In this document: positions 5,169-19,540 of the stretch, piece after piece
Numbering within the stretch: the first letter of the stretch is position 1
Layout of the letters: the number at the start of each line of letters is the position of its first letter
IMG/VR virus record: IMGVR_UViG_3300046524_000034
Location: 1 to 48,751 of that record
Source of the DNA: a virus
Reading direction: 5' to 3' (one strand)
DNA length: 48,751 nt
The notes under the pieces: model-generated
Database searches by the model: none
Told to the model about the DNA's origin: nothing
Seen by the model: the letters and a program-made list of their open reading frames with translations, nothing else
Translations under genes and position numbers: made by a program

Positions 5169-5263
5169 CGATCACCTCCAAGTTCATCGGGCGTTACGAC
5201 GCGCGGCCCGGTATGCGCGGCTGGGCGAGTTGGTTGTGTCAGTGGTGCCAGCATCACTGCCAG

Positions 5264-5336
5264 TGGGCCGGGCAGGACTCGAACCTGCGACCTGCGGGAT
5301 TTCACTCCGCCGCTCTTCCAACTGAGCTACCGGCCC
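5264..5336 (-). tRNA. tRNA-Phe (GAA)
   Basis: A complete cloverleaf can be drawn on the minus strand. The seven-pair acceptor stem GGGCCGG/CCGGCCC is perfect, and the D stem GCTC/GAGC and T stem GCAGG/CCTGC with TTCGAGT loop are intact. The anticodon loop GTGAAAT places GAA at positions 34-36 (5303-5301). The last anticodon-stem pair is A-C rather than Watson-Crick. The CCA end is not encoded. It lies between the membrane-protein gene and the HNH gene, so it is probably carried on the leftward late transcript. Confidence 0.85.
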
Positions 5337-6891: not shown

Positions 6892-7298
6892 CGCTTCAGC
6901 GCAAGGCCGAGAGGCCAAGCGCACACAGACTTCAGATCGTGGCCGGGCAGGCTTACACGCCACTCGGCATCAGAGCTCAGCGACCCGAATGGGAAGCGGG
7001 CTGGGAGAGGGCCACCTCCGCAGTTCCCGGCAGCGCATCGGACGGCCATTCGCAAACCTCTTCGGACTGGGTAGCCCTGGTGCGGCGGACCTCACATGTG
7101 AGTGTGGGGGCGTTCGCGGCCAGTGCGAGTTTGGTGAAGCACCCCCTAGGGGTGTGGAACTGTCAGTGAGTGAGCCTCACTGGCAGGCGATACCAGGCAG
7201 ACCACTGGCGCATCAGGGAGGTCAGTTCACCGTCCTCCGGACGGCCTCGGAAACGGGGCCAGGGGGACGGTGGGAGGGCTCAAGACCCTCACGCAGTA

Positions 7299-7318
7299 CC
7301 GGTCCCGCAAGGGACCGG
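7299..7318 (+). repeat. GNRA-capped hairpin in early leader
   Basis: CCGGTCCC and GGGACCGG pair perfectly around a GCAA tetraloop. It is one of several consecutive leader hairpins, another being CCGCTC/GAGCGG at 7359-7380. Confidence 0.6.
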
Positions 7319-7414
7319 GGGAGTGCCACTACGGGCTCCCGCAAAACCCCCTTCGGGACCGCTCGCCAGTACGGGAGCGGGGCCCGTGCTGCAAAAGCCA
7401 AAGGGGGTGCCACG

Positions 7415-7440
7415 TCAACCCGCCCAACCGGGTGGGTTGA
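7415..7440 (+). terminator. Strong hairpin upstream of first early gene
   Basis: TCAACCCGCCC and GGGTGGGTTGA form an 11-pair stem (one G-U) around AACC, 47 bases before the ATG at 7487. There is no U-tract, so it may be an attenuator or mRNA-stabilising hairpin rather than a classical terminator. Confidence 0.5.
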
Positions 7441-7454
7441 CAGCACACAGTGAG

Positions 7455-7467
7455 TGTGCAAGTGTAG
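7455..7467 (+). promoter_or_regulatory. Stoperator-like 13-bp site
   Basis: TGTGCAAGTGTAG just upstream of the ribosome site of the first early gene, pointing with transcription. Confidence 0.55.
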
Positions 7468-7486
7468 CAACGAGACGGAGAGCACG

Positions 7487-7873
7487 ATGGAAACCTGCAC
7501 GTACGAGCTCGACCACAGCGCCATCGCCGCAACGCACTACTACCGGGCCTGCGACGGTGACCGGGTCAACCTCTGCTTCGGCTGTGCGAGCCGGTTCGGG
7601 TACCCCAACTACCTGACCGAGTACCCCAAGCCGTGGCGCAAGGAGTACGGCTACCTGATCAACGCCTTCGACGGCTCCGGCCTGGGCGACCCGGTCTCGG
7701 ACGTCTGGCCCTTCGAGGAGATCCACGCCGAGGAGTGGCTGGCCGTCCTCGGATGCCAGTCCAAGTACCTGCTCGCCGATGCGGCATGGGAGCCCTACCG
7801 GGCCCACCAGTCCATCGGGACCCTGACGTACGAGGCCACCAGGGTCACTGTCCTCCCACTTGTGCAAGTGTGA
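7487..7873 (+). CDS. Early protein of unknown function, Cys-rich N-terminus
   Basis: Encodes 128 residues starting at ATG 7487 after GAGACGGAGAG. The N-terminal third carries Cys4, Cys19, Cys27 and Cys30 (YRACDGDRVNLCFGCASRFG), which may bind a metal. The rest is rich in aromatic residues. A GTG at 7454 in frame would add residues but lies inside the operator site, so the ATG is preferred. The stop TGA is the last triplet of a stoperator-like site. This is the first gene of the early operon, ahead of ribozyme 1. No family is recognised. Confidence 0.75.
   Translation: METCTYELDHSAIAATHYYRACDGDRVNLCFGCASRFGYPNYLTEYPKPWRKEYGYLINAFDGSGLGDPVSDVWPFEEIHAEEWLAVLGCQSKYLLADAAWEPYRAHQSIGTLTYEATRVTVLPLVQV
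7861..7873 (+). promoter_or_regulatory. Stoperator-like 13-bp site containing a stop codon
   Basis: Exact consensus TGTGCAAGTGTGA. Its final TGA is the stop codon of the preceding gene. Confidence 0.6.
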
Positions 7874-7901
7874 CGAGTGTGAGAGTGTAGCTACATCGCA
7901 A

Positions 7902-7957
7902 GGCGAAACCGTCCGAAAGGGCGGTCCGGCCAGGTGGTTCCTGGTCGCTGATGAGCC
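7902..7957 (+). ncRNA. Type II hammerhead ribozyme 1
   Basis: The order is stem II (GGC, 7902-7904), GAAA, stem III (CCGTCC/GGGCGG with GAAA loop), cleavage triplet GTC ending at 7926, eight-pair stem I (CGGCCAGG/CCTGGTCG), core CTGATGA (7948-7954) and GCC closing stem II. Every core base of a hammerhead opened at stem II is present. An outer GC/GC pair beyond an AA/A internal loop may extend stem II. The next ATG is 27 bases downstream. Confidence 0.93.
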
Positions 7958-7984
7958 AGCCTGCTCTACGAACGGAGACATGTG

Positions 7985-8167
7985 ATGGTGTCGCTGGACA
8001 AGTCGACCTACTCGATCCAGTACGGCCGGTACAGGGCCCGCGTGAACGCCGGTCTGCGCAGCAACAACCTCCGGGCCCTCTCGCTGGAGTTCGGCGAGCG
8101 GGTGCACGACGCCGAGGTCAAGGCGTTCGAGGCGCACAAGGCGAAGGTGCTGGGTGGTGGCAAGTGA
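7985..8167 (+). CDS. Small basic early protein
   Basis: Encodes 60 residues, beginning MVSLDKSTYSIQYGRYRARV and ending in a lysine-rich helix. The start ATG at 7985 follows ACGGAGACA. A GTG at 7982 is an alternative that adds one residue. It is probably an alpha-helical early protein of unknown role. It is the first gene after ribozyme 1, so its mRNA would begin with the ribozyme's stem I hairpin. The stop overlaps the next gene's GTG start by four bases. Confidence 0.7.
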   Translation: MVSLDKSTYSIQYGRYRARVNAGLRSNNLRALSLEFGERVHDAEVKAFEAHKAKVLGGGK

Positions 8168-8400
8168 CCTTGCTCGGTCTCAAGGACTACAAGCGCTGCG
8201 GCGACAACGATCCGCACGAGGGTCACAAGTGGACCTGCGGCATCACCAAGAAGTGGTGCGCCGGTAGGCAGAAGCGCTGCGCGACGGACGGATGCTCTGC
8301 TCCGATCAGCCTCGTCGAGGACTTCTGCTCCGAGGCTTGCTGGGAGGAGTGGCACGCCAAGTACGAGCCCGAGGTGCTGAAGAGGGTGACGCCCCGATGA
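8164..8400 (+). CDS. Small zinc-ribbon-like protein
   Basis: Encodes 78 residues from a GTG overlapping the previous stop (GTGA). Cys and His are spaced as in a zinc-binding protein: RCGDNDPHEGHKWTCG, then WCAGRQKRCATDGCSAP, then FCSEACWEEWHAKY. The second half resembles treble-clef or MYND-like CxxC...FCSxxC patterns used for protein or nucleic-acid contacts. The function is unknown. It is translationally coupled to the previous gene, and ribozyme 2 begins 13 bases after its stop. Confidence 0.75.
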   Translation: MTLLGLKDYKRCGDNDPHEGHKWTCGITKKWCAGRQKRCATDGCSAPISLVEDFCSEACWEEWHAKYEPEVLKRVTPR

Positions 8401-8413
8401 GCGAAGACTGAAA

Positions 8414-8469
8414 GGCGAAACGCCCTGCGGGGCGTCCGGCCGGCTTGGGTTGCCGACCGCTGATGAGCC
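8414..8469 (+). ncRNA. Type II hammerhead ribozyme 2
   Basis: GGC-GAAA, stem III CGCCC/GGGCG with TGCG loop, GTC cleavage triplet ending at 8436, stem I CGGCCGGC/TGCCGACCG with one C-A mismatch, CTGATGA (8460-8466), GCC. The stem III and stem I sequences differ from ribozyme 1, yet pairing is kept. The next start codon is 29 bases downstream. Confidence 0.9.
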
Positions 8470-8498
8470 AGCCTGCTCAACCGTCTGAGGAGACGACT

Positions 8499-8879
8499 GT
8501 GACCACCTACGTACACCCCGCATCCTGGTCCGAGTACACCGCCGCCCTGGACTGGGCGAGGACGGGCAACGAGCGGATCGCTGGAGCGACCAGCGAGCCC
8601 GGCGAGATGCCTCGCGGCGCAAGGTACTACCTCACCAACGACTTCCAGTCCGGGTTCGGAGTGGCGGGCGACGGCACGCTGATCGGCCTGTTCTCCACGG
8701 TCAAGGGTCGCGGTACGGACTTGGTCTGGGACGCGGTGAACCACAAGGGGGCGTCCAAGCTGGACTGCTTCGACGGGTTCCTGCCCGAGTACTACAAGCA
8801 GTTCGGGTTCCTGGAGACGGAGCGCGTCGCGAACTGGACGGCGGGCGAACCGGACGTGGTCTTCATGTCCCTGGTGTGA
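8499..8879 (+). CDS. GNAT-like acetyltransferase fold protein
   Basis: Encodes 126 residues from GTG 8499 behind TGAGGAGACGAC. The central and C-terminal region (GFGVAGDGTLIGLFS, then KLDCFDGFLPEYYKQFGF) resembles the GNAT pattern in which a beta-strand with a D-C-F-D motif precedes a Y-x-x-x-G-F helix. The canonical acetyl-CoA loop (Q/R-x-x-G-x-G/A) is only weakly present at VKGRGTDLVW. It could acetylate a host protein or small molecule early in infection. The substrate is unknown. It is bounded by ribozymes 2 and 3. Confidence 0.55.
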   Translation: MTTYVHPASWSEYTAALDWARTGNERIAGATSEPGEMPRGARYYLTNDFQSGFGVAGDGTLIGLFSTVKGRGTDLVWDAVNHKGASKLDCFDGFLPEYYKQFGFLETERVANWTAGEPDVVFMSLV

Positions 8880-8880
8880 G

Positions 8881-8893
8881 TGTGCAACCTGCG
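8881..8893 (+). promoter_or_regulatory. Stoperator-like 13-bp site (variant)
   Basis: TGTGCAACCTGCG, directly after the stop codon and upstream of the TGTGATACTGT box. Confidence 0.45.
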
Positions 8894-8897
8894 CAAC

Positions 8898-8908
8898 TGT
8901 GATACTGT
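8898..8908 (+). promoter_or_regulatory. TGTGATACTGT promoter box
   Basis: Exact copy of the 11-base box (extended -10 GATACT) found at the main early promoter. It would restart transcription between the GNAT-like gene and ribozyme 3. Confidence 0.55.
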
Positions 8909-8920
8909 CACAACAACAAC

Positions 8921-8983
8921 GGGAAAGCGAAACGCCGAGATGGCGTCTGGCCGGGGTGGTTACCGGTCACTGATGAGCAACCC
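8921..8983 (+). ncRNA. Type II hammerhead ribozyme 3
   Basis: Stem II is bipartite: GC/GC next to the core, then an AAA/AA internal loop, then GGG/CCC. GAAA at 8929-8932, stem III CGCC/GGCG with a GAGAT loop, GTC ending at 8947, stem I TGGCCGG/CCGGTCA, CTGATGA 8970-8976. The stem I loop (GTGGTT) and the stem II internal loop are candidates for the loop-loop contact of fast hammerheads. Confidence 0.88.
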
Positions 8984-9029
8984 CCGCAAGTGTTGTTGAC
9001 CCATCCAGTTCGAGGCTGAAAGGCCATAC

Positions 9030-9119
9030 ATGCAGGTAACCGTGCACGTCCCGAACTTGCTCGACCGTCGTGGATTCCGTGACGGCAGCAACTGGGAGGT
9101 CGCCTTCTTCAGGAGGTAA
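9030..9119 (+). CDS. Predicted 29-residue peptide
   Basis: A short frame from ATG 9030 with AAAGG seven bases upstream, ending at TAA 9117-9119. The peptide begins MQVTVHVPNLLDRRGF and ends in FFRR. It is isolated between ribozymes 3 and 4, in the same place as every other gene of the array, at 46 bases from the preceding ribozyme. That position is the main reason to believe it is expressed. No family can be assigned at this length. Confidence 0.5.
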   Translation: MQVTVHVPNLLDRRGFRDGSNWEVAFFRR

Positions 9120-9189
9120 GGCCCGAGCGTTGCACAGCAGCACCCCGCACAGAGATCCCCAGCCTTGTGGGCCGGGAGGTGCGAACTCA

Positions 9190-9262
9190 TGCGAAACACC
9201 CGGTCAACTGCCCTCAGTGGGCCGGGTGTCGGCCAGGCGTAGTGGCCTGGTCCTGATGAGCA
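9190..9262 (+). ncRNA. Type II hammerhead ribozyme 4 (long stem III)
   Basis: TGC/GCA stem II, GAAA 9193-9196, extended stem III (CACCCGG/CCGGGTG plus an inner ACTG/CAGT helix), GTC ending at 9230, eight-pair stem I GGCCAGGC/GCCTGGTC, CTGATGA 9253-9259. Stem III is about twice the length of the other copies. The next gene's ATG is 21 bases downstream. Confidence 0.88.
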
Positions 9263-9283
9263 GCCGAGTGAGAGACGAGAGAC

Positions 9284-9901
9284 ATGATCCCGATCAAGAC
9301 CGACGCCCGGACCCGTGAGCAGTACGTCCGGAACATCATCGACACGTGGCTGGACGCTTCCGCGGAGCAGGAGTTGCAGGGACGGGACTGGTACCCGAGT
9401 GCGCACCGCCTGGCCGAGTCGATGACTGGGGGCGACGTCCGGGTCGGGGCCGGCCTCCTGGCCGCGCTGTCTCCTCAGACGGCATGGTGGCTGAACATCG
9501 AGCTGGCCACGGAGGCGTACCAGTCGGGCACTCCGGCCCGCCACACGGGGAACTGCCTGGCCAAGGCGGCGAAGATCCTCGCGGGTGTCGACCCGGTGGA
9601 GGTGCTCCCGATGGACCGCAAGACCGGCCACTTCTACCGCTCGATACTCGACCCCACGGACGCGGACGCGGTCTGCATCGACCGGCACGCCCACGACATC
9701 GCGGTGGGGGAGGAGTACGGCGCGAAGGACCGGGGGCTCAGCTCCAAGGGGAGGTACGCCCTGATCGCGCACTGCTACCGGGAGGCGGCCCAGCGCCTGG
9801 GGGAGATCCCCTCGGTGGTGCAGGCGGTGACCTGGGTGGTGTGGAGGGACCGCCTGGTCGGGACGTCCACGAGGGGAACTCTGTTCGCTACTGCCGCGTA
9901 A
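9284..9901 (+). CDS. Actinophage protein with possible HhH/DNA-glycosylase-like fold
   Basis: Encodes 205 residues, entirely helical in character. Conserved-looking stretches are AGLLAALSPQTAWWLN (about 60-75), KAAKILAG, LPMDRKTGHFYRSI and VCIDRHAHDIAVG (about 131-143). Together they resemble a family common in actinophages. The last has an Asp-Arg-His arrangement like the helix-hairpin-helix glycosylase superfamily and its phage base-modifying relatives. I would not call an enzyme activity: a base-excision or DNA-modifying role is an inference from memory of that pattern only. It starts at ATG 9284 with GAGACGAGAGAC upstream and sits between ribozymes 4 and 5. Confidence 0.6.
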   Translation: MIPIKTDARTREQYVRNIIDTWLDASAEQELQGRDWYPSAHRLAESMTGGDVRVGAGLLAALSPQTAWWLNIELATEAYQSGTPARHTGNCLAKAAKILAGVDPVEVLPMDRKTGHFYRSILDPTDADAVCIDRHAHDIAVGEEYGAKDRGLSSKGRYALIAHCYREAAQRLGEIPSVVQAVTWVVWRDRLVGTSTRGTLFATAA

Positions 9902-9902
9902 G

Positions 9903-9915
9903 TGTGCAAGTGACG
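9903..9915 (+). promoter_or_regulatory. Stoperator-like 13-bp site
   Basis: TGTGCAAGTGACG immediately after the stop codon and overlapping the approach to ribozyme 5. Confidence 0.55.
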
Positions 9916-9918
9916 CAA

Positions 9919-9974
9919 GCCGAAACCGTCGAAGGGCGGTCGGGGTGGGGTGGCTCCCGCCTCCTGATGATGGC
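9919..9974 (+). ncRNA. Type II hammerhead ribozyme 5 (stem II altered)
   Basis: GAAA 9922-9925, stem III CCGTC/GGCGG with GAAG loop, GTC ending at 9941, stem I GGGGTGGG/CCCGCCTC, CTGATGA 9964-9970. Stem II is GCC/GGC, but an extra T after the core (CTGATGAT) breaks the usual core-adjacent pair. The outer GC/GC pair seen in ribozyme 1 is kept. Activity may be reduced. Confidence 0.75.
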
Positions 9975-9999
9975 AGCCATGAGTGTGAAGGTGTGACCG

Positions 10000-10581
10000 A
10001 TGATCCCGACGAACGCAGTGCGGTGCCAGGACGACAACGGCGCGATCCTCTACCCGACCAAGCCCGGCACCCCCTACAAGTGCGAGACCTGCGGGGCAGG
10101 GCTGAAGCCCGGACAGACCCCCGGTGTCGGCGAGTACTGGACCGAGAGCTACGGCTACCTCTGCCTCGCGGAGGTGGTGGAGGACGAGCGCGACACCGAG
10201 GAGGAGGTCAGCGACCTCTACTACTCGCTCGCGGTGTTCGCCCGCATCCTCGGCGACCAGATGACGGCGCACGGAGTGGGTGGCCACTTCACCTGCACCG
10301 AGGCGGAAGACCTGGCCCGCGAGCTCGCCAAGTCCGGCCACAAGCACGCCGCGATGACCTTCCTGGAGGGCCACGCCTACGGCGACGACGACCCGGACGA
10401 CCTCCACCGAGACATCGACGACTACGAGGCGTGGGTCCTGGAGCTGGCAGGCCAGCCCGTCCCGACGTTGGTCGAGGGGCCCAAGGACAAGCCCGAGGTG
10501 GTGACCGAGGGCGCGGTCGTGAAGCACGAGCTGGAGGTGGTGACCACCGAGGAGCTGGTGGTCCTGCTGAACCTGCACTGA
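10000..10581 (+). CDS. Early protein with N-terminal zinc ribbon
   Basis: Encodes 193 residues. The first 40 carry Cys9 and a CETCGAGLKPGQ motif (about 28-39), then Cys55, consistent with a small zinc ribbon. Residues 60-150 are acidic and helical. The C-terminal 40 residues are Val/Glu-rich and low-complexity. A rubredoxin-like or transcription-factor-like metal knuckle is plausible, but the function is unknown. The ATG at 10000 follows GAAGGTGTGACCG, a segment repeated before the gene at 11954. It lies between ribozymes 5 and 6. Confidence 0.7.
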   Translation: MIPTNAVRCQDDNGAILYPTKPGTPYKCETCGAGLKPGQTPGVGEYWTESYGYLCLAEVVEDERDTEEEVSDLYYSLAVFARILGDQMTAHGVGGHFTCTEAEDLARELAKSGHKHAAMTFLEGHAYGDDDPDDLHRDIDDYEAWVLELAGQPVPTLVEGPKDKPEVVTEGAVVKHELEVVTTEELVVLLNLH

Positions 10582-10586
10582 CCCAA

Positions 10587-10640
10587 GGCGAAACCCCTGG
10601 AAGGGGGTCGGGCGGAGTGGATCTCCGTCCCTGATGAGCC
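10587..10640 (+). ncRNA. Type II hammerhead ribozyme 6
   Basis: GGC-GAAA, stem III CCCCT/GGGGG with GGAA loop, GTC ending at 10609, perfect eight-pair stem I GGGCGGAG/CTCCGTCC with TGGAT loop, CTGATGA 10631-10637, GCC. It begins five bases after the preceding stop and ends 19 bases before the next start. Confidence 0.93.
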
Positions 10641-10659
10641 AACCACCCAAGGAGACACC

Positions 10660-10872
10660 GTGCCCTACACCGTCGAGTGGACCGAGACCAGCGAGCACAA
10701 GCGCGAGCTGACCGACGAGGAGATGGCCGCACTCAAGGGCGTGACGGTCGAGGAGCTGGCCGAGCTCGACGACGACGAGCTCTGGGACGACCTGGAGGAC
10801 GAGCTCGCCGCGCTGGATGACGACGGGTTCGAGGGCCTGGTGAGGGACGTCAACGAGTGCAGCAAGCACTGA
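10660..10872 (+). CDS. Very acidic small early protein
   Basis: Encodes 70 residues from GTG 10660 with AAGGAGACACC upstream. About a third of residues are Asp or Glu, with the repeated theme LDDDELWDDLEDELAALDDD in the second half. Acidic small proteins of this kind are common among phage early genes and sometimes mimic DNA or bind host enzymes, but no specific role can be inferred. It is enclosed by ribozymes 6 and 7, and the second ribozyme begins one base after its stop codon. Confidence 0.75.
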   Translation: MPYTVEWTETSEHKRELTDEEMAALKGVTVEELAELDDDELWDDLEDELAALDDDGFEGLVRDVNECSKH

Positions 10873-10873
10873 A

Positions 10874-10934
10874 GGCGAAACCCCCCCCGTTCGGGGGTGG
10901 TCCGGGGTGGCTGGCATCCCCCCGCTGATGAGCC
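10874..10934 (+). ncRNA. Type II hammerhead ribozyme 7
   Basis: GGC-GAAA, stem III of eight C residues facing GGGGGTGG (one C-U mismatch) around GTTC, GTC ending at 10902, stem I CGGGGTGG against CCCCCCG with one mismatch, CTGATGA 10925-10931, GCC. Confidence 0.85.
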
Positions 10935-10958
10935 TGCCGAACCAAGAGGAGAACCACA

Positions 10959-11102
10959 GTGACCCCCAAGTTCCGCACCCACGACCTGACCGTCCGCGAC
11001 TCGAAGCGCACGGACAAGGCGACGACGCTGGCCCGCAAGGCGGTCCGTCAGAACAAGTACGAGGCCAACGAGGCGGTCGTCCGCATCACCGCGAACGCCT
11101 GA
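10959..11102 (+). CDS. Small basic early protein
   Basis: Encodes 47 residues from GTG 10959 behind AAGAGGAGAACCACA, a strong ribosome site. The protein is basic and helical (TPKFRTHDLTVRDSKRTDKA, then KAVRQNKYEANEAVVRI), suggesting nucleic-acid contact, but no family is recognised. Its TGA shares one base with the next ATG (TGATG), so the two genes are coupled. It is the first gene after ribozyme 7. Confidence 0.65.
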   Translation: MTPKFRTHDLTVRDSKRTDKATTLARKAVRQNKYEANEAVVRITANA

Positions 11103-11401
11103 TGTCCGAGGTCGACGAGCGGTTCAACCACTGGGCCGAGCGACTGCGCACGATCCTCGCGAACACCGACGAGGACGCCAGGCAGGCCGAGATGGACGAC
11201 GCCTGCGACGAGATGTGGATCGCGGACAAGAACCTGATCGCCTACTGGGAGAACTGCATCGACGGTTGCTGCCCGACCGGCGAGCTGGTCCTGGCCCGCC
11301 TGGTCCACCCGCAGGTGAGTGCCCCCGCGATGGTGCGCGTCTTCCCCGAGCTCATCCGATCGTCCCGGACGCACCGGGCCGTCATCTTCCAGGAGAACTG
11401 A
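11102..11401 (+). CDS. Early protein of unknown function
   Basis: Encodes 99 residues from an ATG that overlaps the previous stop by one base. It is acidic in the first half (MSEVDERFNHWAERLRTIL, then ARQAEMDDACDEMWI). A double cysteine stretch, NCIDGCCPTGEL, lies near residue 54 and a Val/Arg-rich tail follows. No family is recognised. It is the second gene of a three-gene unit between ribozymes 7 and 8. Confidence 0.7.
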   Translation: MSEVDERFNHWAERLRTILANTDEDARQAEMDDACDEMWIADKNLIAYWENCIDGCCPTGELVLARLVHPQVSAPAMVRVFPELIRSSRTHRAVIFQEN

Positions 11402-11402
11402 A

Positions 11403-11828
11403 GTGCCGAGCATCGACGAGATCAAGAAGTACCTGACCGACGAGCGTGCGCAGGACATCATCGACACCGCCTCGTACGGAGGGATCACCTACTGGGCGAC
11501 GGGCCCGACCGAGGAGGAATTCGCCGGCCTGCCCGAGGGCAAGACGTGGACGATCACCGAGGGCACCGCGCCGCACCCCATCTTCCCCTTCGACGACGTG
11601 CGTGAGGTCGAGGGTGTGCACTACCTGAACGCGGAAGACATCCGCGAGGCGTACACCAAGCTGCTCGACATCGACCAGGCGTACGTGAACCGGGAGTACC
11701 ACGGCTACATCATCGAGTCGTGGATGGACCGGGACGAGAAGCAGGGCATCGACGCCGGGCACATCGACGCGGGCACGGCGGACATCATCGTCCAGCTCGC
11801 CGCACTGGGGGAGATCCGCTACGGCTGA
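11403..11828 (+). CDS. Early protein of unknown function
   Basis: Encodes 141 residues from GTG 11403. The N-terminal helix (SIDEIKKYLTDERAQDIIDT) leads into YGGITYWATGPTEEEF. Then come beta-like segments and a C-terminal helix (AGTADIIVQLAALGEIRYG). The pattern is familiar from other actinophage early regions, but no activity is known to me. It is one base downstream of the preceding stop and is followed by an operator-like site, a TGTGATACTGT box and ribozyme 8. Confidence 0.7.
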   Translation: MPSIDEIKKYLTDERAQDIIDTASYGGITYWATGPTEEEFAGLPEGKTWTITEGTAPHPIFPFDDVREVEGVHYLNAEDIREAYTKLLDIDQAYVNREYHGYIIESWMDRDEKQGIDAGHIDAGTADIIVQLAALGEIRYG

Positions 11829-11834
11829 GGAGAG

Positions 11835-11847
11835 TGTGCAAGCTGCG
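11835..11847 (+). promoter_or_regulatory. Stoperator-like 13-bp site
   Basis: TGTGCAAGCTGCG, six bases after the stop codon and directly upstream of the promoter box at 11852, the same arrangement as at 8881. Confidence 0.5.
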
Positions 11848-11851
11848 CACG

Positions 11852-11862
11852 TGTGATACTGT
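11852..11862 (+). promoter_or_regulatory. TGTGATACTGT promoter box
   Basis: Exact copy of the 11-base extended -10 element. It precedes ribozyme 8 by 11 bases. Confidence 0.55.
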
Positions 11863-11873
11863 GACCACATCAA

Positions 11874-11930
11874 GGCGAAACCACCCGGAAGGGGTGGTCG
11901 GGGGGAGTGGATCTCCCCTCCTGATGAGCC
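11874..11930 (+). ncRNA. Type II hammerhead ribozyme 8
   Basis: GGC-GAAA, stem III CCACCC/GGGTGG with GGAAG loop, GTC ending at 11899, perfect eight-pair stem I GGGGGGAG/CTCCCCTC with TGGAT loop, CTGATGA 11921-11927, GCC. The A-U pair in stem III where ribozyme 1 has G-C is a covariation. Confidence 0.93.
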
Positions 11931-11953
11931 AACCAACTGTGAAGGTGTGACCG

Positions 11954-12337
11954 ATGGACGTCTTCGAGAAGATCGAGCACTACGACCCGCCGACCCTGGC
12001 CCGCCTCGCGAAGTGCGCCGAGCCCGACACCCGAGTGAGTGAGGGCGCCGACTTCCTCGCCCTCGTGCGGGACACCGTGCTCCGCCTGGCCAAGGAGTAC
12101 GGGGAGGTGAGCACCCCCTACCGAGAGGCCATCCAGGACACCGCAGCCGACATCGGCAGCACGGCCGAGCCGGGCGTGAAGTGGCGCCGGTTCGTGGACC
12201 TGAGCGCCTACAAGGAGAACGTCACCGAGTTCGGTCGGCCCAGCCCGGACACCCCCGAAGGGCACGCCGACCTGGCCCTGTTCTTCATCGGCTTCCGACT
12301 GGCAAGCGCGCTGATCACCGAGATCGAGAAGGGCTGA
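11954..12337 (+). CDS. Early protein of unknown function
   Basis: Encodes 127 residues from ATG 11954, behind the same GAAGGTGTGACCG leader found before the gene at 10000. Mostly helical: FEKIEHYDPPTLARLAKCAE, then DFLALVRDTVLRLAKEYGEV, and a C-terminal hydrophobic helix ALFFIGFRLASALITEIEKG that could pack in a core or weakly touch membrane. No family is recognised. It is the first gene after ribozyme 8, with three further genes before ribozyme 9. Confidence 0.7.
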   Translation: MDVFEKIEHYDPPTLARLAKCAEPDTRVSEGADFLALVRDTVLRLAKEYGEVSTPYREAIQDTAADIGSTAEPGVKWRRFVDLSAYKENVTEFGRPSPDTPEGHADLALFFIGFRLASALITEIEKG

Positions 12338-12340
12338 CCC

Positions 12341-12574
12341 ATGGGACGCATGAAGGACATCGCGATCGACCTGATCACCTACGAAGAGGGCGCCCTGGAT
12401 GTGATGGAGACGCTCGAACTGTTCGCTCTGCTGGTCAAGAGCGGCGTGATCTGGGACCTCCAGGGTCACTACGGACGCGTCGCCAACGAGCTGATGCACA
12501 AGGGCTACCTCACCCCGGACGGCAGGGTCACCGAGTTCGCCGAGCTCATGGTCGAGGAGCTGGTCACCACGTGA
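12341..12574 (+). CDS. Small helical early protein
   Basis: Encodes 77 residues from ATG 12341, three bases after the previous stop. The sequence MKDIAIDLITYEEGALDVME followed by ELFALLVKSGVIWDLQGHYG looks like a small winged-helix or four-helix protein. The C-terminal YLTPDGRVTEFAELM resembles a wing. Similar proteins occur widely in actinophages without assigned function. It overlaps the next gene's GTG by four bases. Confidence 0.75.
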   Translation: MGRMKDIAIDLITYEEGALDVMETLELFALLVKSGVIWDLQGHYGRVANELMHKGYLTPDGRVTEFAELMVEELVTT

Positions 12575-12990
12575 AGCTCCCCCGGCAGTTGAGTGCGCGG
12601 GTCGACAGCGACCTGGCCCGCCAGATCCGCACCCTTCGGATCGCCGGTCTGACCTACAGCCAGATGGTCAGGTGGGGAGTCACTCTCCTCGCCGATGTGT
12701 ACCGGCAGGCGTGGATCTACCAGCAGGTGCCCGCCACGAAGACCCCCGTCCTGAAGTCCTACATCTACGAGAAGTACGACCCCACCCACCAGGGCCCGCC
12801 CTGGCACGAAGAAGAGGAGACCACCCATGAAGACCGCAGCGAAGTACGTCCTGACGTTCCTGGCCCTCGCCCTGCTGGGCTCCCTGACCTGGAACTCGCC
12901 GGCCTCCGCCTCCGACGCGAAGCCGGTGACGCTCCCGGCCGCGGTGAAGTACGTCCCGGTGTTCCATCTGCCGACGCGGCCCTGCTCTGA
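12571..12990 (+). CDS. Ribbon-helix-helix-like DNA-binding protein
   Basis: Encodes up to 139 residues from GTG 12571 (GTGA overlap with the previous stop). The N-terminus LSARVDSDLARQIRTLRIAG followed by LTYSQMVRWGVTLLADVYR matches the strand-helix-helix layout of CopG/Arc-type proteins, so it probably binds DNA as a dimer. No stop occurs until 12990. The last 54 codons therefore overlap the secreted-protein gene at 12827 in another frame, and that tail looks like an out-of-frame image of the other gene. The C-terminal half may be passively encoded. Confidence 0.65.
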   Translation: MKLPRQLSARVDSDLARQIRTLRIAGLTYSQMVRWGVTLLADVYRQAWIYQQVPATKTPVLKSYIYEKYDPTHQGPPWHEEEETTHEDRSEVRPDVPGPRPAGLPDLELAGLRLRREAGDAPGRGEVRPGVPSADAALL

Positions 12991-13258
12991 GGACAACACT
13001 GTCGTCCGCAACTGCTACTGGGACGGGGGCAAGCGGGGCAACGGGAGAAGCGCCTCGTACTACATCGACCGCGCCGGTCTCGTGACGTACCTGAACCCCA
13101 AGCTCAACGACCAGGCCGCCCGGCTGAAGTTCAACGCCGCGCAGAGCAAGGCGGGCAAGGAGCACTGGGGTACCTACGACGGGCACCAGTTCTGCTGGGC
13201 CAAGGTCGGCGACACCTCGTACGTCACGTGCTTCGACGGGTACAAGACGACGACCTGA
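12827..13258 (+). CDS. Secreted small protein with signal peptide
   Basis: Encodes 143 residues from ATG 12827 behind GAAGAGGAGACCACCC, a strong ribosome site. Residues 1-28 form a classic Sec signal peptide: basic start MKTAAK, hydrophobic core YVLTFLALALLGSL, and a likely cleavage after ASA. The mature part has four cysteines in two pairs (about 53/62 and 123/133), suggesting disulphides outside the cell, and aromatic-rich stretches. No enzyme motif is recognised. An exported early or lysogenic protein could act in superinfection exclusion or alter the envelope. It overlaps the previous gene by 164 bases in another frame. Confidence 0.75.
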   Translation: MKTAAKYVLTFLALALLGSLTWNSPASASDAKPVTLPAAVKYVPVFHLPTRPCSEDNTVVRNCYWDGGKRGNGRSASYYIDRAGLVTYLNPKLNDQAARLKFNAAQSKAGKEHWGTYDGHQFCWAKVGDTSYVTCFDGYKTTT

Positions 13259-13259
13259 G

Positions 13260-13272
13260 TGTGCATGTGTGA
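13260..13272 (+). promoter_or_regulatory. Stoperator-like 13-bp site
   Basis: TGTGCATGTGTGA, one mismatch to consensus, directly after the stop of the secreted-protein gene. Confidence 0.5.
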
Positions 13273-13275
13273 CAA

Positions 13276-13331
13276 GGCGAAACCTCCGGAAGGAGGTCGG
13301 CGCGGGATGGCTGCCCACGCCCTGACGAGCC
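13276..13331 (+). ncRNA. Type II hammerhead ribozyme 9 (CUGACGA core)
   Basis: GGC-GAAA, stem III CCTCC/GGAGG with GGAA loop, GTC ending at 13298, stem I GGCGCGGG/CCCACGCC with one C-A mismatch, CTGACGA 13322-13328, GCC. The U-to-C change is at core position 7, which tolerates any base in hammerheads. The next GTG is 24 bases downstream. Confidence 0.88.
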
Positions 13332-13355
13332 AAGCCAGTCGAGAGGACCGCGACA

Positions 13356-13835
13356 GTGAAGTGCAGCGTCACCAACACCAAGGGCGAGCAGTGCAACCGC
13401 GACGTCAAGACGAACAACCTCTGCCCCGGCCACAACACCCGGCTGATACGCAAGGGTGACGTCCTGGCCGACATCCCCCTGCGTGCCTACACCCCCGGCC
13501 GCAACAGTGAGGCCCCGAAGTTCGGGCAGGGCGACACCGACGAGGAGCGGTTCTTCTCCCTGGTGGCCAAGAGCAGCGACCACTGGGAGTGGGAGGGCGG
13601 CATCACCAAGAGCACGGGCCTGGGCATGACGTCGCTGGAGAGCACGCCGAAGACCGCCGGCCGAGCCTCCTGGGAGCTGGCCTTCGGCCCGCTGCCCGAG
13701 GGCGTGAGGATCAAGCACGCCTGCGGCAACCGCCTGTGCGTCAGGCCCTCCCACCTGGCAGCCGTGTACCTGAACGGGGACACCTACGTGGAGTGGACCG
13801 AGGCCGAGCTCGCCGAGCTGGAGATCGCCGCTTGA
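13356..13835 (+). CDS. HNH endonuclease with N-terminal zinc knuckle
   Basis: Encodes 159 residues from GTG 13356. The N-terminus MKCSVTNTKGEQCNRDV plus NNLCPGHN gives a Cys3-His zinc knuckle. The C-terminal half is an HNH_3-type domain: GRASWELAFGPLPEGV, IKHACGNRLCVRPSHL, with His and paired Cys of the beta-beta-alpha metal site. Such HNH genes are often mobile or act in early DNA breakage. The middle (DHWEWEGGITKSTGLG) is the domain's first strand pair. It is the last gene directly preceded by a ribozyme. Confidence 0.85.
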   Translation: MKCSVTNTKGEQCNRDVKTNNLCPGHNTRLIRKGDVLADIPLRAYTPGRNSEAPKFGQGDTDEERFFSLVAKSSDHWEWEGGITKSTGLGMTSLESTPKTAGRASWELAFGPLPEGVRIKHACGNRLCVRPSHLAAVYLNGDTYVEWTEAELAELEIAA

Positions 13836-14071
13836 GCCGCCAGTCCAGCGGGTGGGAGTACGTCCATGGCGTTCCGCGGTGGGCGCCGACAGTAGAGGGC
13901 GCCATCGCCGAGCTGACGTACGACAAGTACGGCCAGGAGTACGAGGAGTCGGTGGCCAAGCTGACGGACATCGCACGTGCGGCACAGCGTGACTGCGCCG
14001 ACCGGCTGACCGAGGCCGGGCACACCGAGGCAGCAGCCCTGATCTTCCCCACCTACCCCGAGGAGAACTGA
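13832..14071 (+). CDS. Small early protein of unknown function
   Basis: Encodes 79 residues if translation begins at TTG 13832, which overlaps the previous stop (TTGA). No in-frame ATG or GTG exists near the start. The sequence is acidic and helical: VEGAIAELTYDKYGQEYEES, then LTDIARAAQRDCADRLTEAG. TTG initiation coupled to the upstream stop also appears at 15363, supporting the choice. No family is recognised. Confidence 0.65.
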   Translation: MSRQSSGWEYVHGVPRWAPTVEGAIAELTYDKYGQEYEESVAKLTDIARAAQRDCADRLTEAGHTEAAALIFPTYPEEN

Positions 14072-14377
14072 GTGAGTGAGCGCGTAGAGATCGGCACCGT
14101 GTACGTGGACTCCGGGACGGTGTTCGTGGGCGACCCCTGTTACACCGCCACGGGAGACGCGAGCAACCACATCAAGACCTGGTCCGAGTGGTGCGGCAAG
14201 CACCCGTGGAACAAGGAGAACTACGACGTCATCGAGCCCGCCGGCCACGGCCTGGGCCTGAGCATCCCGACCAAGTACGGGGACGGCAGCTACCCCGTGT
14301 ACGCCGAGATCGAAGAGGGCCGAGTGGCCCGAGTCACCATCGACTTCGACCCCACCTACGAGGAGGACGAGCAGTGA
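14072..14377 (+). CDS. Beta-rich phage protein of unknown function
   Basis: Encodes 101 residues from GTG 14072, abutting the previous stop. It carries the pattern GTVYVDSGTVFVGDPCY near the N-terminus, which recurs in many phage and bacterial small proteins without known activity, then a charged central helix and a beta C-terminus (RVARVTIDFDPTYEEDEQ). The GDPCY motif suggests a conserved active or binding site. It overlaps the next gene by four bases. Confidence 0.75.
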   Translation: MSERVEIGTVYVDSGTVFVGDPCYTATGDASNHIKTWSEWCGKHPWNKENYDVIEPAGHGLGLSIPTKYGDGSYPVYAEIEEGRVARVTIDFDPTYEEDEQ

Positions 14378-14547
14378 AGATCGCCATCACGATCACGGTA
14401 GACGTCAAGGACCCGGCCGAGTGGACCACCTCCTTCGGGGTGGAGGGTCGGGCGCAGATCCGGGAGGACGTGAAGTCCTACGTCGGCAACGCCGCGCAGA
14501 ACCTGCGTGTGTGGGAAGAGGTCGAGGCGGAGGTGAGCTGGAAGTGA
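14374..14547 (+). CDS. Small early protein of unknown function
   Basis: Encodes 57 residues from GTG 14374 (GTGA overlap). Strand-helix-strand in appearance: KIAITITVDVKDPAEWT, GRAQIREDVKSYVGNAAQNL, and a terminal strand WEEVEAEVSWK. It could be a small alpha/beta modulator. Four-base overlaps on both sides place it in a tightly coupled unit with the dNMP kinase. Confidence 0.7.
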   Translation: MKIAITITVDVKDPAEWTTSFGVEGRAQIREDVKSYVGNAAQNLRVWEEVEAEVSWK

Positions 14548-15116
14548 CCGACCTGATCGTGGGACTCAGCGGATACGCGAGGTCCGGCAAGAACACGGCG
14601 GCTGACGCCCTGATCCAGCGCGGCTGGAGGCAGGCGGGCTACGCCGACAAGCTGAAGGAGTTCCTGTACGCAGTGAACCCCTTGATCCCTGGCCACTTCG
14701 GGGCCGGCAACCTGCGCCTGCGACAGCTCGTCGACTCGGCCGGCTGGGACTACGCCAAGACCACGTACCCCGAGGTCCGGTCCCTGCTCCAGCGCACGGG
14801 CACGGAGGCTGGCCGGCGGGTGCTCGGCGATGACGTGTGGGTCGAGGCCCTGTACGCCGACCACCAGGACGCGGCCGGCCTGGTCGTGACCGACGTCCGC
14901 TTCCCGAACGAGGCCGAGGCCGTGGTCAAGCGGGGCGGCGTGATGATCCGGGTCGAGAGGCCCGGCGTGGGCCCGACCAAGGACAAGTACGGACGAGCCC
15001 ACGTCAGCGAGACCGCGCTGGATGCCTGGCCCTTCGACCACGTGCTGGTCAACGACGGGTCGGTGGACAACCTGCACGCCAAACTTCGAGGCGTCGCTGA
15101 GCTTGTGCAAGTGTGA
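14544..15116 (+). CDS. Deoxynucleoside monophosphate kinase
   Basis: Encodes 190 residues from GTG 14544. A P-loop, GLSGYARSGKNTAADAL, lies at about residues 7-23. The TDVRFPNEAE motif (about 115-124) and the ending DHVLVNDGSVDNL are hallmarks of phage dNMP kinases related to T4 gp1 and the AAA-like deoxynucleotide kinases. It phosphorylates dNMPs to dNDPs for phage DNA synthesis, complementing ThyX, dCMP deaminase and ribonucleotide reductase encoded elsewhere here. The stop TGA is the end of a stoperator-like site. Confidence 0.88.
   Translation: MTDLIVGLSGYARSGKNTAADALIQRGWRQAGYADKLKEFLYAVNPLIPGHFGAGNLRLRQLVDSAGWDYAKTTYPEVRSLLQRTGTEAGRRVLGDDVWVEALYADHQDAAGLVVTDVRFPNEAEAVVKRGGVMIRVERPGVGPTKDKYGRAHVSETALDAWPFDHVLVNDGSVDNLHAKLRGVAELVQV
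15104..15116 (+). promoter_or_regulatory. Stoperator-like 13-bp site containing a stop codon
   Basis: Exact consensus TGTGCAAGTGTGA. The last TGA terminates the dNMP kinase, as at 7861-7873. Confidence 0.6.
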
Positions 15117-15119
15117 CGG

Positions 15120-15130
15120 TGTGATACTGT
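15120..15130 (+). promoter_or_regulatory. TGTGATACTGT promoter box
   Basis: Exact copy of the repeated extended -10 box, four bases after the operator site. Its GTG (15129) doubles as the apparent start of the next gene. Confidence 0.5.
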
Positions 15131-15329
15131 GACACTCACAAGGCCAAGCGAGCTCGACGAACTGCCCGAGGGCACGACGATCGAGATCCTGGACAGACGG
15201 GGCAGCCTCCGCACCAAGCGAGACGGCCACTGGCGAGACGCCAGCAAGGCACCCGAGTCCACATGGAACGTCTACGTGTACGTCAACGCCCGACGCTGGG
15301 GAGCGAGGGTCATCGAGAAAGGACAGTGA
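15129..15329 (+). CDS. Small early protein of unknown function
   Basis: Encodes 66 residues if begun at GTG 15129. That codon lies inside the TGTGATACTGT box, so a transcript made from that box could not include it. Translation would then depend on read-through from upstream, or use an unseen start. The sequence (ELDELPEGTTIEILDRRGSL, then NVYVYVNARRWGARVIEKGQ) reads like a small beta-barrel. No family is recognised. Confidence 0.55.
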   Translation: MTLTRPSELDELPEGTTIEILDRRGSLRTKRDGHWRDASKAPESTWNVYVYVNARRWGARVIEKGQ

Positions 15330-15330
15330 A

Positions 15331-15366
15331 GTGACTGACACCCACAAGGGCCGGGTCCACTCTTGA
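15331..15366 (+). CDS. Possible 11-codon leader ORF
   Basis: GTG 15331 with AGAAAGGACAGTGAA upstream opens an 11-codon frame (VTDTHKGRVHS) whose TGA overlaps the TTG start of the next gene (TTGA). It is likely a coupling ORF that delivers ribosomes to a weak TTG start rather than a functional protein. Confidence 0.35.
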   Translation: MTDTHKGRVHS

Positions 15367-15869
15367 GGATCACCCCGAGGTCGCACGAGATCCAGAAGAT
15401 CGTCGACCTCCTGGAAGACCCCACCTTCGACAGCCCCGAGCAGATGGCGAAGGCCGTCATCAAGGAGGTGGGGGACATGCTCCAGATGCGAGACCTGTTC
15501 GCCCTCGTCCACACCTGGGCAGACGGCAGCAAGGGCCTGAACTTCGGACCCTTCGGCGCCGTCGCTGAAGCCGAGAGCTTCGCCAAGAAGGTGAGCATCG
15601 GAGGCACCGGCCGAGTGGTGCCGCTGACGTCGTCGGGGATCATCCTCGCCAACGTGGAGGGCAAGCAGGACGGGTGGCCCGGCTACTGCTGGAACCCCGA
15701 GTGTGGGCACAGCCCCAACAACCACGCCATCGCGGGATCAAGCCGCGGTAAGTGCCACATGACGATGTGCAACTGTGACAAGTTCGTCAAGGATGACCCG
15801 GCACTGAAGGCAAGGAAGAAGACCACCGCCCGCAAGGTGGGCACGGCGAAGGGTGTTAACGAACTGTGA
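15363..15869 (+). CDS. Early protein with C-terminal metal-binding motif
   Basis: Encodes 168 residues from TTG 15363. The N-terminal half is helical (SHEIQKIVDLLEDPTFDSPE, then MAKAVIKEVGDMLQM). A strand-rich middle follows. Then comes a Cys/His cluster, YCWNPECGHSPNNHAI followed by GKCHMTMCNCDKFV, typical of a small zinc site, and a basic tail (ARKKTTARKVGTAKG). It probably contacts nucleic acid or protein. The family is unknown. Confidence 0.7.
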   Translation: MRITPRSHEIQKIVDLLEDPTFDSPEQMAKAVIKEVGDMLQMRDLFALVHTWADGSKGLNFGPFGAVAEAESFAKKVSIGGTGRVVPLTSSGIILANVEGKQDGWPGYCWNPECGHSPNNHAIAGSSRGKCHMTMCNCDKFVKDDPALKARKKTTARKVGTAKGVNEL

Positions 15870-16102
15870 GCAACTGCAACTGGAAGCCGTGCGAGTGCGG
15901 GGCCAAGCGGGACTTCATGAACAACCACAACGCGGAGAAGGCGCTCGGCAGGGCGCAGGCCAAGCGGACCCGGCGCGCTGACGCCAAGGCCGGCACGAGG
16001 CGTGGCCTCAAGGTCGAGACCCGCACGTACGAGTGCGAGTACGGGGGCTTCCACCTGACGTCGGAGTCCCGCGCCTCCTACGAGAACCGCATCCATGCCT
16101 AA
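15866..16102 (+). CDS. Small basic Cys-containing protein
   Basis: Encodes 78 residues from GTG 15866 (GTGA overlap). CNWKPCECGAKRDFMNNHN at the start and CEYGGFHLTSESRASYENR at the end bracket a highly basic helix (RAQAKRTRRADAKAGTRRG). The layout resembles a small zinc finger with a nucleic-acid-binding helix. The function is unknown. Confidence 0.65.
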   Translation: MSNCNWKPCECGAKRDFMNNHNAEKALGRAQAKRTRRADAKAGTRRGLKVETRTYECEYGGFHLTSESRASYENRIHA

Positions 16103-16118
16103 GAGAGGAGATCACACA

Positions 16119-16637
16119 GTGAACGGATGGGACTGGGTCGCGGAGGGCCAGCGCATCGCAGAGGAGACGAGGCGGGCCGGCGAGGTGGACATCGACGCGA
16201 TCAAGGCGCAGTCGATCGTCTTCGAGGAGCCGGCCGACCACCTGAAGGCGGCCGACATCAGCGCAGACGAGGCACCGCCGGCACCCCCTGTCGGGGGACT
16301 GGCCGGAGACCTGGCCGAACTGGTTCGGGAGGTCGAGATCTGCCGGGCCGGGCACTGTGATGCCGCGTACCGACAGAACAGTCAGGGTGGCGAGGCCCGC
16401 AACGTGGTCGGCCAGATCGCGAAGGCCGCGGGCGTGACGCTGTCCTCCGCCTTCGTCCGGCCCCTCGGTGGTGACGTCTGGAGCCCGGCGAACATGGCCC
16501 GCGTGCTCAAGGGCGTGCAGGATCTCGTCGCCGAGAACCAGTCGCTCCGTGATGAGCACGCCGCTCGTGACCAGAAGGCAACCGGTACCGCCAAGGCCCT
16601 GCGTGAGGCCCTGGCTCACTTCGAGGAGGGTGTGTAA
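16119..16637 (+). CDS. Early protein of unknown function
   Basis: Encodes 172 residues from GTG 16119 behind GAGAGGAGATCACACA. An upstream in-frame ATG at 16095 would place that ribosome site inside the coding region, so GTG is preferred. Alpha-helical N-terminus, a Pro-rich linker (EAPPAPPVGG), then a conserved-looking segment CRAGHCDAAYRQNSQGGEAR and a final coiled coil (LVAENQSLRDEHAARDQKAT). Two Cys and a His in CRAGHC may bind metal. The stop lies in a stoperator-like site. Confidence 0.7.
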   Translation: MNGWDWVAEGQRIAEETRRAGEVDIDAIKAQSIVFEEPADHLKAADISADEAPPAPPVGGLAGDLAELVREVEICRAGHCDAAYRQNSQGGEARNVVGQIAKAAGVTLSSAFVRPLGGDVWSPANMARVLKGVQDLVAENQSLRDEHAARDQKATGTAKALREALAHFEEGV

Positions 16638-16643
16638 GTGTCG
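16631..16643 (+). promoter_or_regulatory. Stoperator-like site spanning a stop/start junction
   Basis: TGTGTAAGTGTCG contains both the TAA stop of the preceding gene and the GTG start of the next. Confidence 0.55.
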
Positions 16644-16949
16644 CTTCCCATCGGACCGCTTGAGCCGGTCACCCACGATGACGTCCTCATCGTCTACGGG
16701 TTCCACCAGGCCCGCCTCTACCCCGAGTTCGACCGCAACAACGTCTACACCCTCCACGGAGTCGCCGCCTTCGGCCGGCTGCGAGGCAGGCGCCCGCGAA
16801 GGATCTTCCACACCGGCCTCGGGCTGAGTCGGGAGGCCGGCCGTCTCCGCGCTGAACTCACCCGCATGGAAGGGCTGTACGGCACCAAGATCCACCACGT
16901 CAACGAGCTCCACGCCTACGACGAGCCGGCGGTGCCCAGTGAAGCGTGA
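16638..16949 (+). CDS. Early protein of unknown function
   Basis: Encodes 103 residues from GTG 16638, abutting the upstream stop. Hydrophobic start VTHDDVLIVYGFHQARLYPE, a very basic middle (GRLRGRRPRRIFHTGLG) and a helical C-terminus (RLRAELTRMEGLYGTKIHHV). No family is recognised. The next gene starts 11 bases before its end. Confidence 0.65.
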   Translation: MSLPIGPLEPVTHDDVLIVYGFHQARLYPEFDRNNVYTLHGVAAFGRLRGRRPRRIFHTGLGLSREAGRLRAELTRMEGLYGTKIHHVNELHAYDEPAVPSEA

Positions 16950-17076
16950 CAACCGCCCCGTGATCGTCACCTTCGCCGTCGTGATCTTCATCCTCGGCAT
17001 GTTGACCGGCGCCTACATCACCGACCACGCCAACCAGACGCACACCATCGAAGCCCAGGAGGTACCCACCCCGTGA
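16939..17076 (+). CDS. Small single-pass membrane protein
   Basis: Encodes 45 residues from GTG 16939. It has a basic N-terminus (VKRDNR), one hydrophobic segment PVIVTFAVVIFILGMLTGAY (residues 7-26) and a polar tail. It probably sits in the membrane with the C-terminus outside. The stop overlaps the ThyX start by four bases (GTGA). The function is unknown. Small inner-membrane proteins in phage early regions sometimes inhibit host division or block superinfection. Confidence 0.6.
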   Translation: MKRDNRPVIVTFAVVIFILGMLTGAYITDHANQTHTIEAQEVPTP

Positions 17077-17786: not shown

Positions 17787-17971
17787 TGAGTCGCCCCGAG
17801 TACCTGATCGAGCGATACCCGACGCTCATGAGCTCCGAGCGAGAGGCCCGCCTCCCGAAGTGGGCACAGGTCAAGCTCACCGACCTCCGTCTCCTCCTGA
17901 TGCAGGAGGCGAGCAAGTACGAGGACGCCCTCGAAGTCATCGAGCAGATGGAGGGCGGCCACCACAACTGA
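17786..17971 (+). CDS. Small protein of unknown function
   Basis: Encodes 61 residues from ATG 17786, which shares one base with the ThyX stop (TGATG). A GTG at 17783 is an alternative. Helical and charged: SREYLIERYP-like start, KWAQVKLTDLRLLLMQEASK, and a His-rich end (EGGHHN). It is the last gene of the rightward early operon, four bases before a terminator hairpin. Confidence 0.65.
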   Translation: MSRPEYLIERYPTLMSSEREARLPKWAQVKLTDLRLLLMQEASKYEDALEVIEQMEGGHHN

Positions 17972-17975
17972 CGCC

Positions 17976-18040
17976 ACCCCCGTTCGGGGGTAGTGAGACA
18001 AGACAAGGCCCCGGTACCCCCGAAAGGGGGTAGCCGGGGC
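17976..18040. terminator. Bidirectional double-hairpin terminator
   Basis: ACCCCC-GTTC-GGGGGT (17976-17991) followed by a longer stem GCCCCGG-TACCCCC-GAAA-GGGGGTA-CCGGGGC (18008-18040). It sits between the converging early operon and integrase gene. Confidence 0.8.
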
Positions 18041-18054
18041 TCTGTCGTACCTGC

Positions 18055-19485: not shown

Positions 19486-19488
19486 GGT

Positions 19489-19540
19489 ACCCCCAAGGTG
19501 TACCGCTGGTTCGAGTGTTACAGCTTGAGGGTACACCCTC
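19489..19540. promoter_or_regulatory. attP: Probable phage attachment site attP
   Basis: The gap between the integrase start and the divergent regulator holds inverted arms GGTGTACC (19497-19504) and GGTACACC (19530-19537) around a centre near 19512-19517, as expected for a serine-integrase attP. Compared from memory with the R4 attP, the left CCCCAA..TACC arm and right GCTTG.GGGTACAC arm align base for base with few changes. The central core differs from R4's GAAGCAGTGGTA and reads CTGGTTCGAGTGTTA here. The palindrome GAGGGT-AC-ACCCTC (19527-19540) could also be an operator. Confidence 0.65.

Follow-up and report, generated by a model that had tools for sequence, protein, structure and literature searches.

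The window analysed here is the complete IMG/VR virus record IMGVR_UViG_3300046524_000034, 48,751 bases in length. By sequence comparison it belongs to a Streptomyces phage close to Caelum (genus Caelumvirus, subfamily Arquatrovirinae), the nearest named relative in the phage collection, which shares 92% identity across 87% of positions 7000-20000. The + strand of the window carries an operon of small genes that we call early from its place and gene content; the function of most of its products is not known, and the annotation of small genes in early operons is uncertain. All nine gaps of at least 50 nt in this operon are occupied by an RNA element whose family, core and fold identify it as a type II hammerhead ribozyme, with predicted self-cleavage (Table 1).

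A sequence-only reading of this DNA had proposed nine such ribozymes on the coding strand of one early operon. The results from a cmscan search against Rfam 15 bear this out. The type II hammerhead family RF02276, for which the curated cut-off is 37 bits, has nine matches, which lie on the + strand between 7901 and 13340; eight of them exceed the cut-off (38.0-64.9 bits) and the ninth, at the expected place, lies just below it. The same search gave no RF02276 match elsewhere in the record or on the - strand, and the family had 0 matches in 14 control genomes. The copy below the cut-off, which starts at 10586, attains 85.1 bits with our own covariance model, R1, but is one of the sequences on which R1 was trained. 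All nine copies share the strand order stem II, GAAA, closed stem III, GUC, closed stem I, CUGANGA and stem II, as the earlier reading had it, and the cleavage nucleotide H17 falls at the same nine positions that it had named (the first of the two numbers given for each cut in Table 1).

The model R1 was built from eight copies of equal length, because MAFFT alignments of mixed-length copies slid stem III; E-values of our own models are approximate. Searched with R1, the window and six relatives together yield 67 hammerheads, every one of them on the early strand. In all 67 copies from the window and the named phages the core is intact and H17 is C or U, never G, and the full CUGANGA motif is conserved in 214 of 217 aligned copies, environmental copies included. 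Covariation was assessed in an alignment of 68 rows from the window and seven phages, one row being a sub-threshold match from phage phiCAM; this alignment was fitted to the structure and hence is biased towards pairing. In it, 98.1% of the stem cells are paired, and two-sided changes occur in 220 cells, versus 61 in shuffled and 15-35 in slid controls, at 13 of the 16 pairs. As in RF02276, stem II is open, stems I and III are closed by loops, and pairing is maintained through covariation, which the earlier reading had noticed for stems I and III. To judge from this pattern of substitution, the hammerhead structure is under selection.

RF02276 also includes a pseudoknot between loop I and the 3' tail, on which the earlier reading is silent and which matters for cleavage speed (PMC3088659). 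The test for this interaction was made without fitting. The native tail pairs better with its loop than do the tails of other copies (z 9.8 over 106 distinct combinations, the use of which removes kinship among copies only in part). The signal is weaker on the seven phages alone (p about 0.03 with a longest-complement score that allows G-U, and 0.008-0.024 when refined), and becomes clear once environmental copies are added. Counts at fixed columns were unusable on the alignment A4, where the loops do not line up in the same columns. Double changes include UGGCU/AGCCA, UGGCA/UGCCA, GGGGU/ACCCC, GUGACG/CGUCAC and UGGGCAG/CUGCCCA. Judged by such complementarity, the pseudoknot is present in the set as a whole and weak in single copies such as that at 11873.

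The placement of the hammerheads is as regular as their fold. Across seven phages they occupy 52 of the 56 early-operon gaps of at least 50 nt, starting 0-5, about 10-28 or about 44 nt past the stop codon, with a median spacing of 28 nt from the core to the next start codon. In the window, the distance from the end of the hammerhead to the following start codon is about 11-44 nt, varying with the element end that is chosen, and is consistent with the 19-46 bases first reported; the predicted leader after cleavage would be 50-62 nt, with one of 82. Among 189 hammerheads in total, every one of the 36 sources with at least two has all its copies on one strand.

Type II arrays were found in all 12 named phages examined (Caelumvirus, Omarvirus, Sentinelvirus, Janusvirus and two unclassified relatives), with 8-12 copies each, and nine is thus not the exceptional number that it had seemed. 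Many IMG/VR contigs carry them as well; the copy counts there come from pattern-seeded loci and are no census. Nine hammerheads each, on one strand, are present in bacterial contigs of Streptomyces sp. NRRL F-5123 (L140/L144), Saccharothrix (L143) and Lentzea (L149), all three of which are probably prophages.

The arrays are conserved gene border by gene border. A hammerhead precedes the acetyltransferase family, the family of the gene at 10000 and the 47-aa family of the gene at 10959 in seven of seven phages each, and the OCR-like family in six of six; in Issmi, which lacks the OCR gene at its usual place, the hammerhead sits before the following gene. The gene content upstream of a given hammerhead varies from phage to phage, so that the ribozyme acts like a 5'-leader element belonging to the downstream gene. 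At one and the same border, that of the 47-aa gene, the stems are wholly rewritten (CGGGGU.../...CCCCCG, CACCGG.../...CCGGUG and GGCGAG.../...CCCGCC). A few hammerheads overlap annotated genes (Amethyst gp73 and gp77; Alvy gp70, gp79 and gp82-84; Caelum gp79). Most of these cases resemble doubtful start calls, and several starts or small open reading frames (ORFs) in these records are probably wrong.

Table 1. Hammerheads, promoter-like stretches and genes of the early operon; positions are those of the window, and the first number of each cut is H17
Feature	Positions	Strand	Evidence	Predicted cut
Early small-gene operon	7487-14071	+	gap mapping; 9/9 gaps of at least 50 nt each hold a hammerhead	
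Type II hammerhead 1	7901-7965	+	RF02276, 45.9 bits	7926/7927
Gene downstream of hammerhead 1	7985-8167	+		
Type II hammerhead 2	8413-8477	+	RF02276, 40.2 bits	8436/8437
Acetyltransferase-like gene, downstream of hammerhead 2	8499-8879	+	family annotation in relatives	
Promoter-like stretch GTGTGCAA...TGTGATACTGT, just 5' of hammerhead 3	8881-8908	+	exact 11-mer at 8898	
Type II hammerhead 3	8925-8986	+	RF02276, 51.7 bits	8947/8948
29-codon ORF downstream of hammerhead 3	9030-9119	+		
Type II hammerhead 4, long stem III	9189-9269	+	RF02276, 64.9 bits	9230/9231
DUF7178 gene, downstream of hammerhead 4	9284-9901	+	Pfam match	
Type II hammerhead 5, stem II GCC/GGC with bulged U	9918-9982	+	RF02276, 51.8 bits	9941/9942
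Gene downstream of hammerhead 5	10000-10581	+		
Type II hammerhead 6	10586-10648	+	RF02276, 34.4 bits, E 0.0025, below cut-off	10609/10610
Gene downstream of hammerhead 6	10660-10872	+		
Type II hammerhead 7, abuts the stop codon of the preceding gene	10873-10942	+	RF02276, 38.5 bits	10902/10903
Gene (47-aa family) downstream of hammerhead 7	10959-11102	+		
Promoter-like stretch GTGTGCAA...TGTGATACTGT, just 5' of hammerhead 8	11834-11862	+	exact 11-mer at 11852; border-conserved in relatives	
Type II hammerhead 8	11873-11938	+	RF02276, 43.4 bits	11899/11900
Gene downstream of hammerhead 8	11954-12337	+	family annotated OCR-like antirestriction in relatives	
Type II hammerhead 9	13275-13340	+	RF02276, 38.0 bits	13298/13299
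HNH endonuclease gene, downstream of hammerhead 9	13356-13835	+	phrog_4842	

A second line of evidence comes from sister phages. PhiCAM (Camvirus) has the same operon, but no hammerhead; its gaps hold instead a repeated 39-nt element with features of a tRNA (L136, 44149-49200). The layout is a 5-bp acceptor-like stem, a linker bearing GGCA, a 6-bp T stem, a T loop UUCGAGN and then ACU. Pairing is retained in 100% of the cells, with 77 two-sided changes versus 16 in shuffled controls. Furthermore, linker columns 10-21 covary (C-G or G-C), and linker column 22 covaries with the last base of the T loop (A-U, G-C, C-G, U-A); both contacts were absent from the assumptions of the model. The equivalents of G+1-C72 are invariant and that of A73 is near-invariant. 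Rfam has no family for this element and offers only a sub-threshold match to mascRNA (22 bits, E about 1). Like the tRNA-like RNase P substrates typified by mascRNA (RF01684), the element has an acceptor-like stem, a T stem and a canonical T loop on a coaxial helix; unlike them, it lacks an anticodon arm, its helix measures 5+6 = 11 bp rather than 12, and in nearly all copies the place of the 3' RCCA end is taken by ACU. It appears to be an undescribed structured RNA. ARAGORN calls a tRNA-Arg in phiCAM at 45522-45604, overlapping a stretch of this element, and the Endor2 record has a tRNA-Arg annotated beneath its match to the region so called. A phiCAM match at 49162-49224 (R1 17 bits, E 0.31) was considered as a hammerhead relic and rejected, as it has no hammerhead core and coincides with the tRNA-like element.

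The two elements replace each other. All eight Camvirus, Likavirus and Hautrevirus phages examined have 6-10 copies of the tRNA-like element and no hammerhead, while the element is absent from all 12 hammerhead phages and from the window; none of 65 environmental or prophage loci proved to be a contig with both. In the sister phages the tRNA-like element occupies 38 of the 46 gaps of at least 50 nt, and it stands at the borders at which the hammerheads stand elsewhere. It precedes the 47-aa family in all three sister phages that have this gene, the HNH gene in five of five and the family of the gene at 7985 in four of four. It likewise precedes the OCR-like gene in three of four and the acetyltransferase in three of five; in the remaining two phages the acetyltransferase opens the operon. 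In a tree of the dNMP-kinase, one fully supported branch separates the hammerhead group from the tRNA-like group. Because the two groups flank this branch, a significance test of their exclusivity over the 20 genomes was not used, and the weight of the swap lies in the number of matching borders. The swap is more informative than the array itself and is the strongest functional clue, one that lies outside the window and beyond the reach of the earlier reading.

From the structures and their positions, we consider it likely that the hammerheads are cis-acting processing sites which cut the long early phage transcript into gene units. Each ribozyme would fold between a stop codon and the next ribosome binding site and cut after GUC. 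The upstream message would thereby end in the stem III hairpin and a 2',3'-cyclic phosphate; the downstream message would start with a 5'-OH and the stem I hairpin, its loop pseudoknotted to the tail, within a leader of 50-82 nt. A polycistronic early RNA could in this manner be converted in the cell to gene-sized mRNAs with structured ends, stability and translation being set for each gene. In the sister phages, the equivalent job may be done by the tRNA-like element, which would probably be cut by host RNase P, with RNase Z also possible. The element resembles minimal acceptor/T-arm substrates of RNase P, an enzyme that is itself a ribozyme and also cuts mRNA and C4-type RNAs. Two unrelated folds at the same borders have one plausible ability in common, namely to place or attract a cut between the stop codon and the ribosome binding site, and the shared outcome would be a downstream mRNA with a helix at its extreme 5' end. 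By a small degree, we lean towards the broader proposal that early mRNA is cut at shared gene borders in two sister lineages of Streptomyces phages by unrelated devices, arrays of self-cleaving hammerheads in one and of an undescribed tRNA mimic that recruits host RNase P in the other, that a whole set of sites was either exchanged or assembled twice on a single branch, and that mRNAs with structured 5' ends are the common product.

Some of the hammerheads may serve in a different manner. Promoter-like sequence GTGTGCAA...TGTGATACTGT, likewise absent from the earlier reading, lies directly 5' of hammerheads 3 and 8, and the idea that all nine are purely cistron separators was dropped. The motif lies in the space of roughly 44 nt before hammerhead 3 and before that of the OCR-like gene; it is kept between phages, with a spacer that varies. 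The exact TGTGATACTGT 11-mer occurs five times in the window, at 6881, 8898, 11852 and 15120 on the + strand and at 28632 on the - strand, and these copies are probably -10 regions of phage promoters. If GTGTGCAA...TGTGATACTGT is read as a promoter, hammerheads 3 and 8 would be leader trimmers, each removing part of a fresh 5'-triphosphate leader. A second motif, similar to GTGTGCAAGTG, has 40 matches with at most two mismatches versus 13 expected (for example at 7454, 7860, 9902 and 13259 of the window) and is frequently found right behind stop codons, 5' of hammerheads. It is perhaps the stoperator of R4-like phages. A paper on twelve such phages describes stoperators, and its main text names neither ribozymes nor tRNAs (PMC10276819).

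The cuts might, conversely, destabilise the RNA, so that the 5'-OH products are degraded and the early genes are shut off fast. The glmS ribozyme, likewise a self-cleaving RNA in the 5'-UTR directly before a start codon, makes the same 5'-OH cut, and RNase J degrades the cut glmS mRNA in Bacillus; short-lived early expression would moreover suit a phage. Unlike glmS, the present elements have another fold and many copies per operon, and nothing about them suggests dependence on a ligand. Decay is also difficult to reconcile with a new 5' end inside a GC-rich pseudoknotted hairpin, which should impede 5' exonucleases, and with the sister element, which would give another end (a 5'-phosphate, if RNase P cuts), so that the 5'-OH is not the common point. 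We therefore regard rapid shut-off as unlikely. Joining of the cut pieces by the host ligase RtcB, to give circular mRNAs or spliced RNAs, meets the same difficulty with the ends of the tRNA-like element and is less probable still. The pieces between two hammerheads would carry the 5'-OH and 2',3'-cyclic phosphate, ends of the hammerhead type are RtcB substrates, and 33 of 35 Streptomyces genomes encode RtcB; the phage itself, however, has none, and such products were not detected for other prophage hammerheads (PMC3088659). The unrelated elements at the same borders thus favour processing into gene-sized mRNAs over readings that require a 5'-OH, be it glmS-like decay or circularisation. Least probable is the suggestion that the repeats are mainly recombination joints for the exchange of early gene cassettes, with ribozyme activity incidental: the gene content between hammerheads does vary while the hammerhead stays before the same downstream gene, but joints would need conserved sequence, and at orthologous borders the stems are rewritten with their pairing retained, it being the fold rather than the sequence that is kept in both alternative elements.

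Several points weigh against processing of the early transcript as we propose it. Some copies have a low score, for example that at 10586 with 34.4 bits, and in some the pseudoknot comprises just 2-3 pairs, for example at 11873 (3 bp). Several hammerheads begin only 0-5 nt past a stop codon, and a ribosome terminating there could interfere with their folding. That the whole operon is transcribed as one unit is an assumption, and the repeated stoperator-like and promoter-like motifs point to more complex transcription. Finally, since the split between hammerhead and tRNA-like phages follows a single branch, their exclusivity amounts to one evolutionary event and not to twenty independent ones.

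The individual ribozymes are not new in kind. They share with RF02276 (PMC3088659) the core, the topology, the GUC triplet, the short stem II, the pseudoknot and the phage or prophage setting, and differ from its typical members in nothing basic, although in some copies here stem II contains a bulged U. In 2011, Perreault et al. (PMC3088659) published hammerhead clusters that flank prophage genes, together with a proposal of mRNA processing, and showed that tandem sets cleave polycistronic RNA in vitro, one set also in E. coli. Those clusters (Figure 3 of PMC3088659, for example the Agrobacterium ardA set) surround small phage genes, an antirestriction gene included, with several coding-strand hammerheads, as do the nine in the window, and the processing of a long transcript is proposed for both. 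The arrays described here differ in having 8-12 hammerheads per phage genome, in nearly every real gap, in being border-conserved across several genera, and in that the whole set is replaced by a tRNA-like element in sister genera. The earlier remark that such an array was not known to be described thus holds in part: clusters and the processing idea have been known since 2011, while no description of arrays of 8-12, of border conservation or of a tRNA-like counterpart was found in the open-access literature. The scale of the array, the conservation by border and the reciprocal replacement appear to be new.

Although it has been known since 2011 that phages carry hammerheads, the reason why bacterial self-cleaving ribozymes are enriched near each other and near certain phage genes is still called unknown (PMC10085705). 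A culturable group of phages with 8-12 copies per genome and gene-by-gene conservation, together with sister phages that carry another element at the same borders, constitutes a natural experiment on this question. The reciprocal replacement hints at a so far unknown purpose of hammerheads in phages, and the arrays could supply compact parts for operon splitting.

Two minor observations may be added. Back-to-back pairs of hammerheads with almost no spacer occur in Alvy (L134:47894-48029), in Spernnie (L135:44571-44701) and at the first border of Bowden and Sentinel; double cutting of such a pair would free an RNA of about 70 nt. The window also contains a real-looking tRNA-Phe (GAA) at 5263-5336, on the - strand, opposite to the hammerheads.

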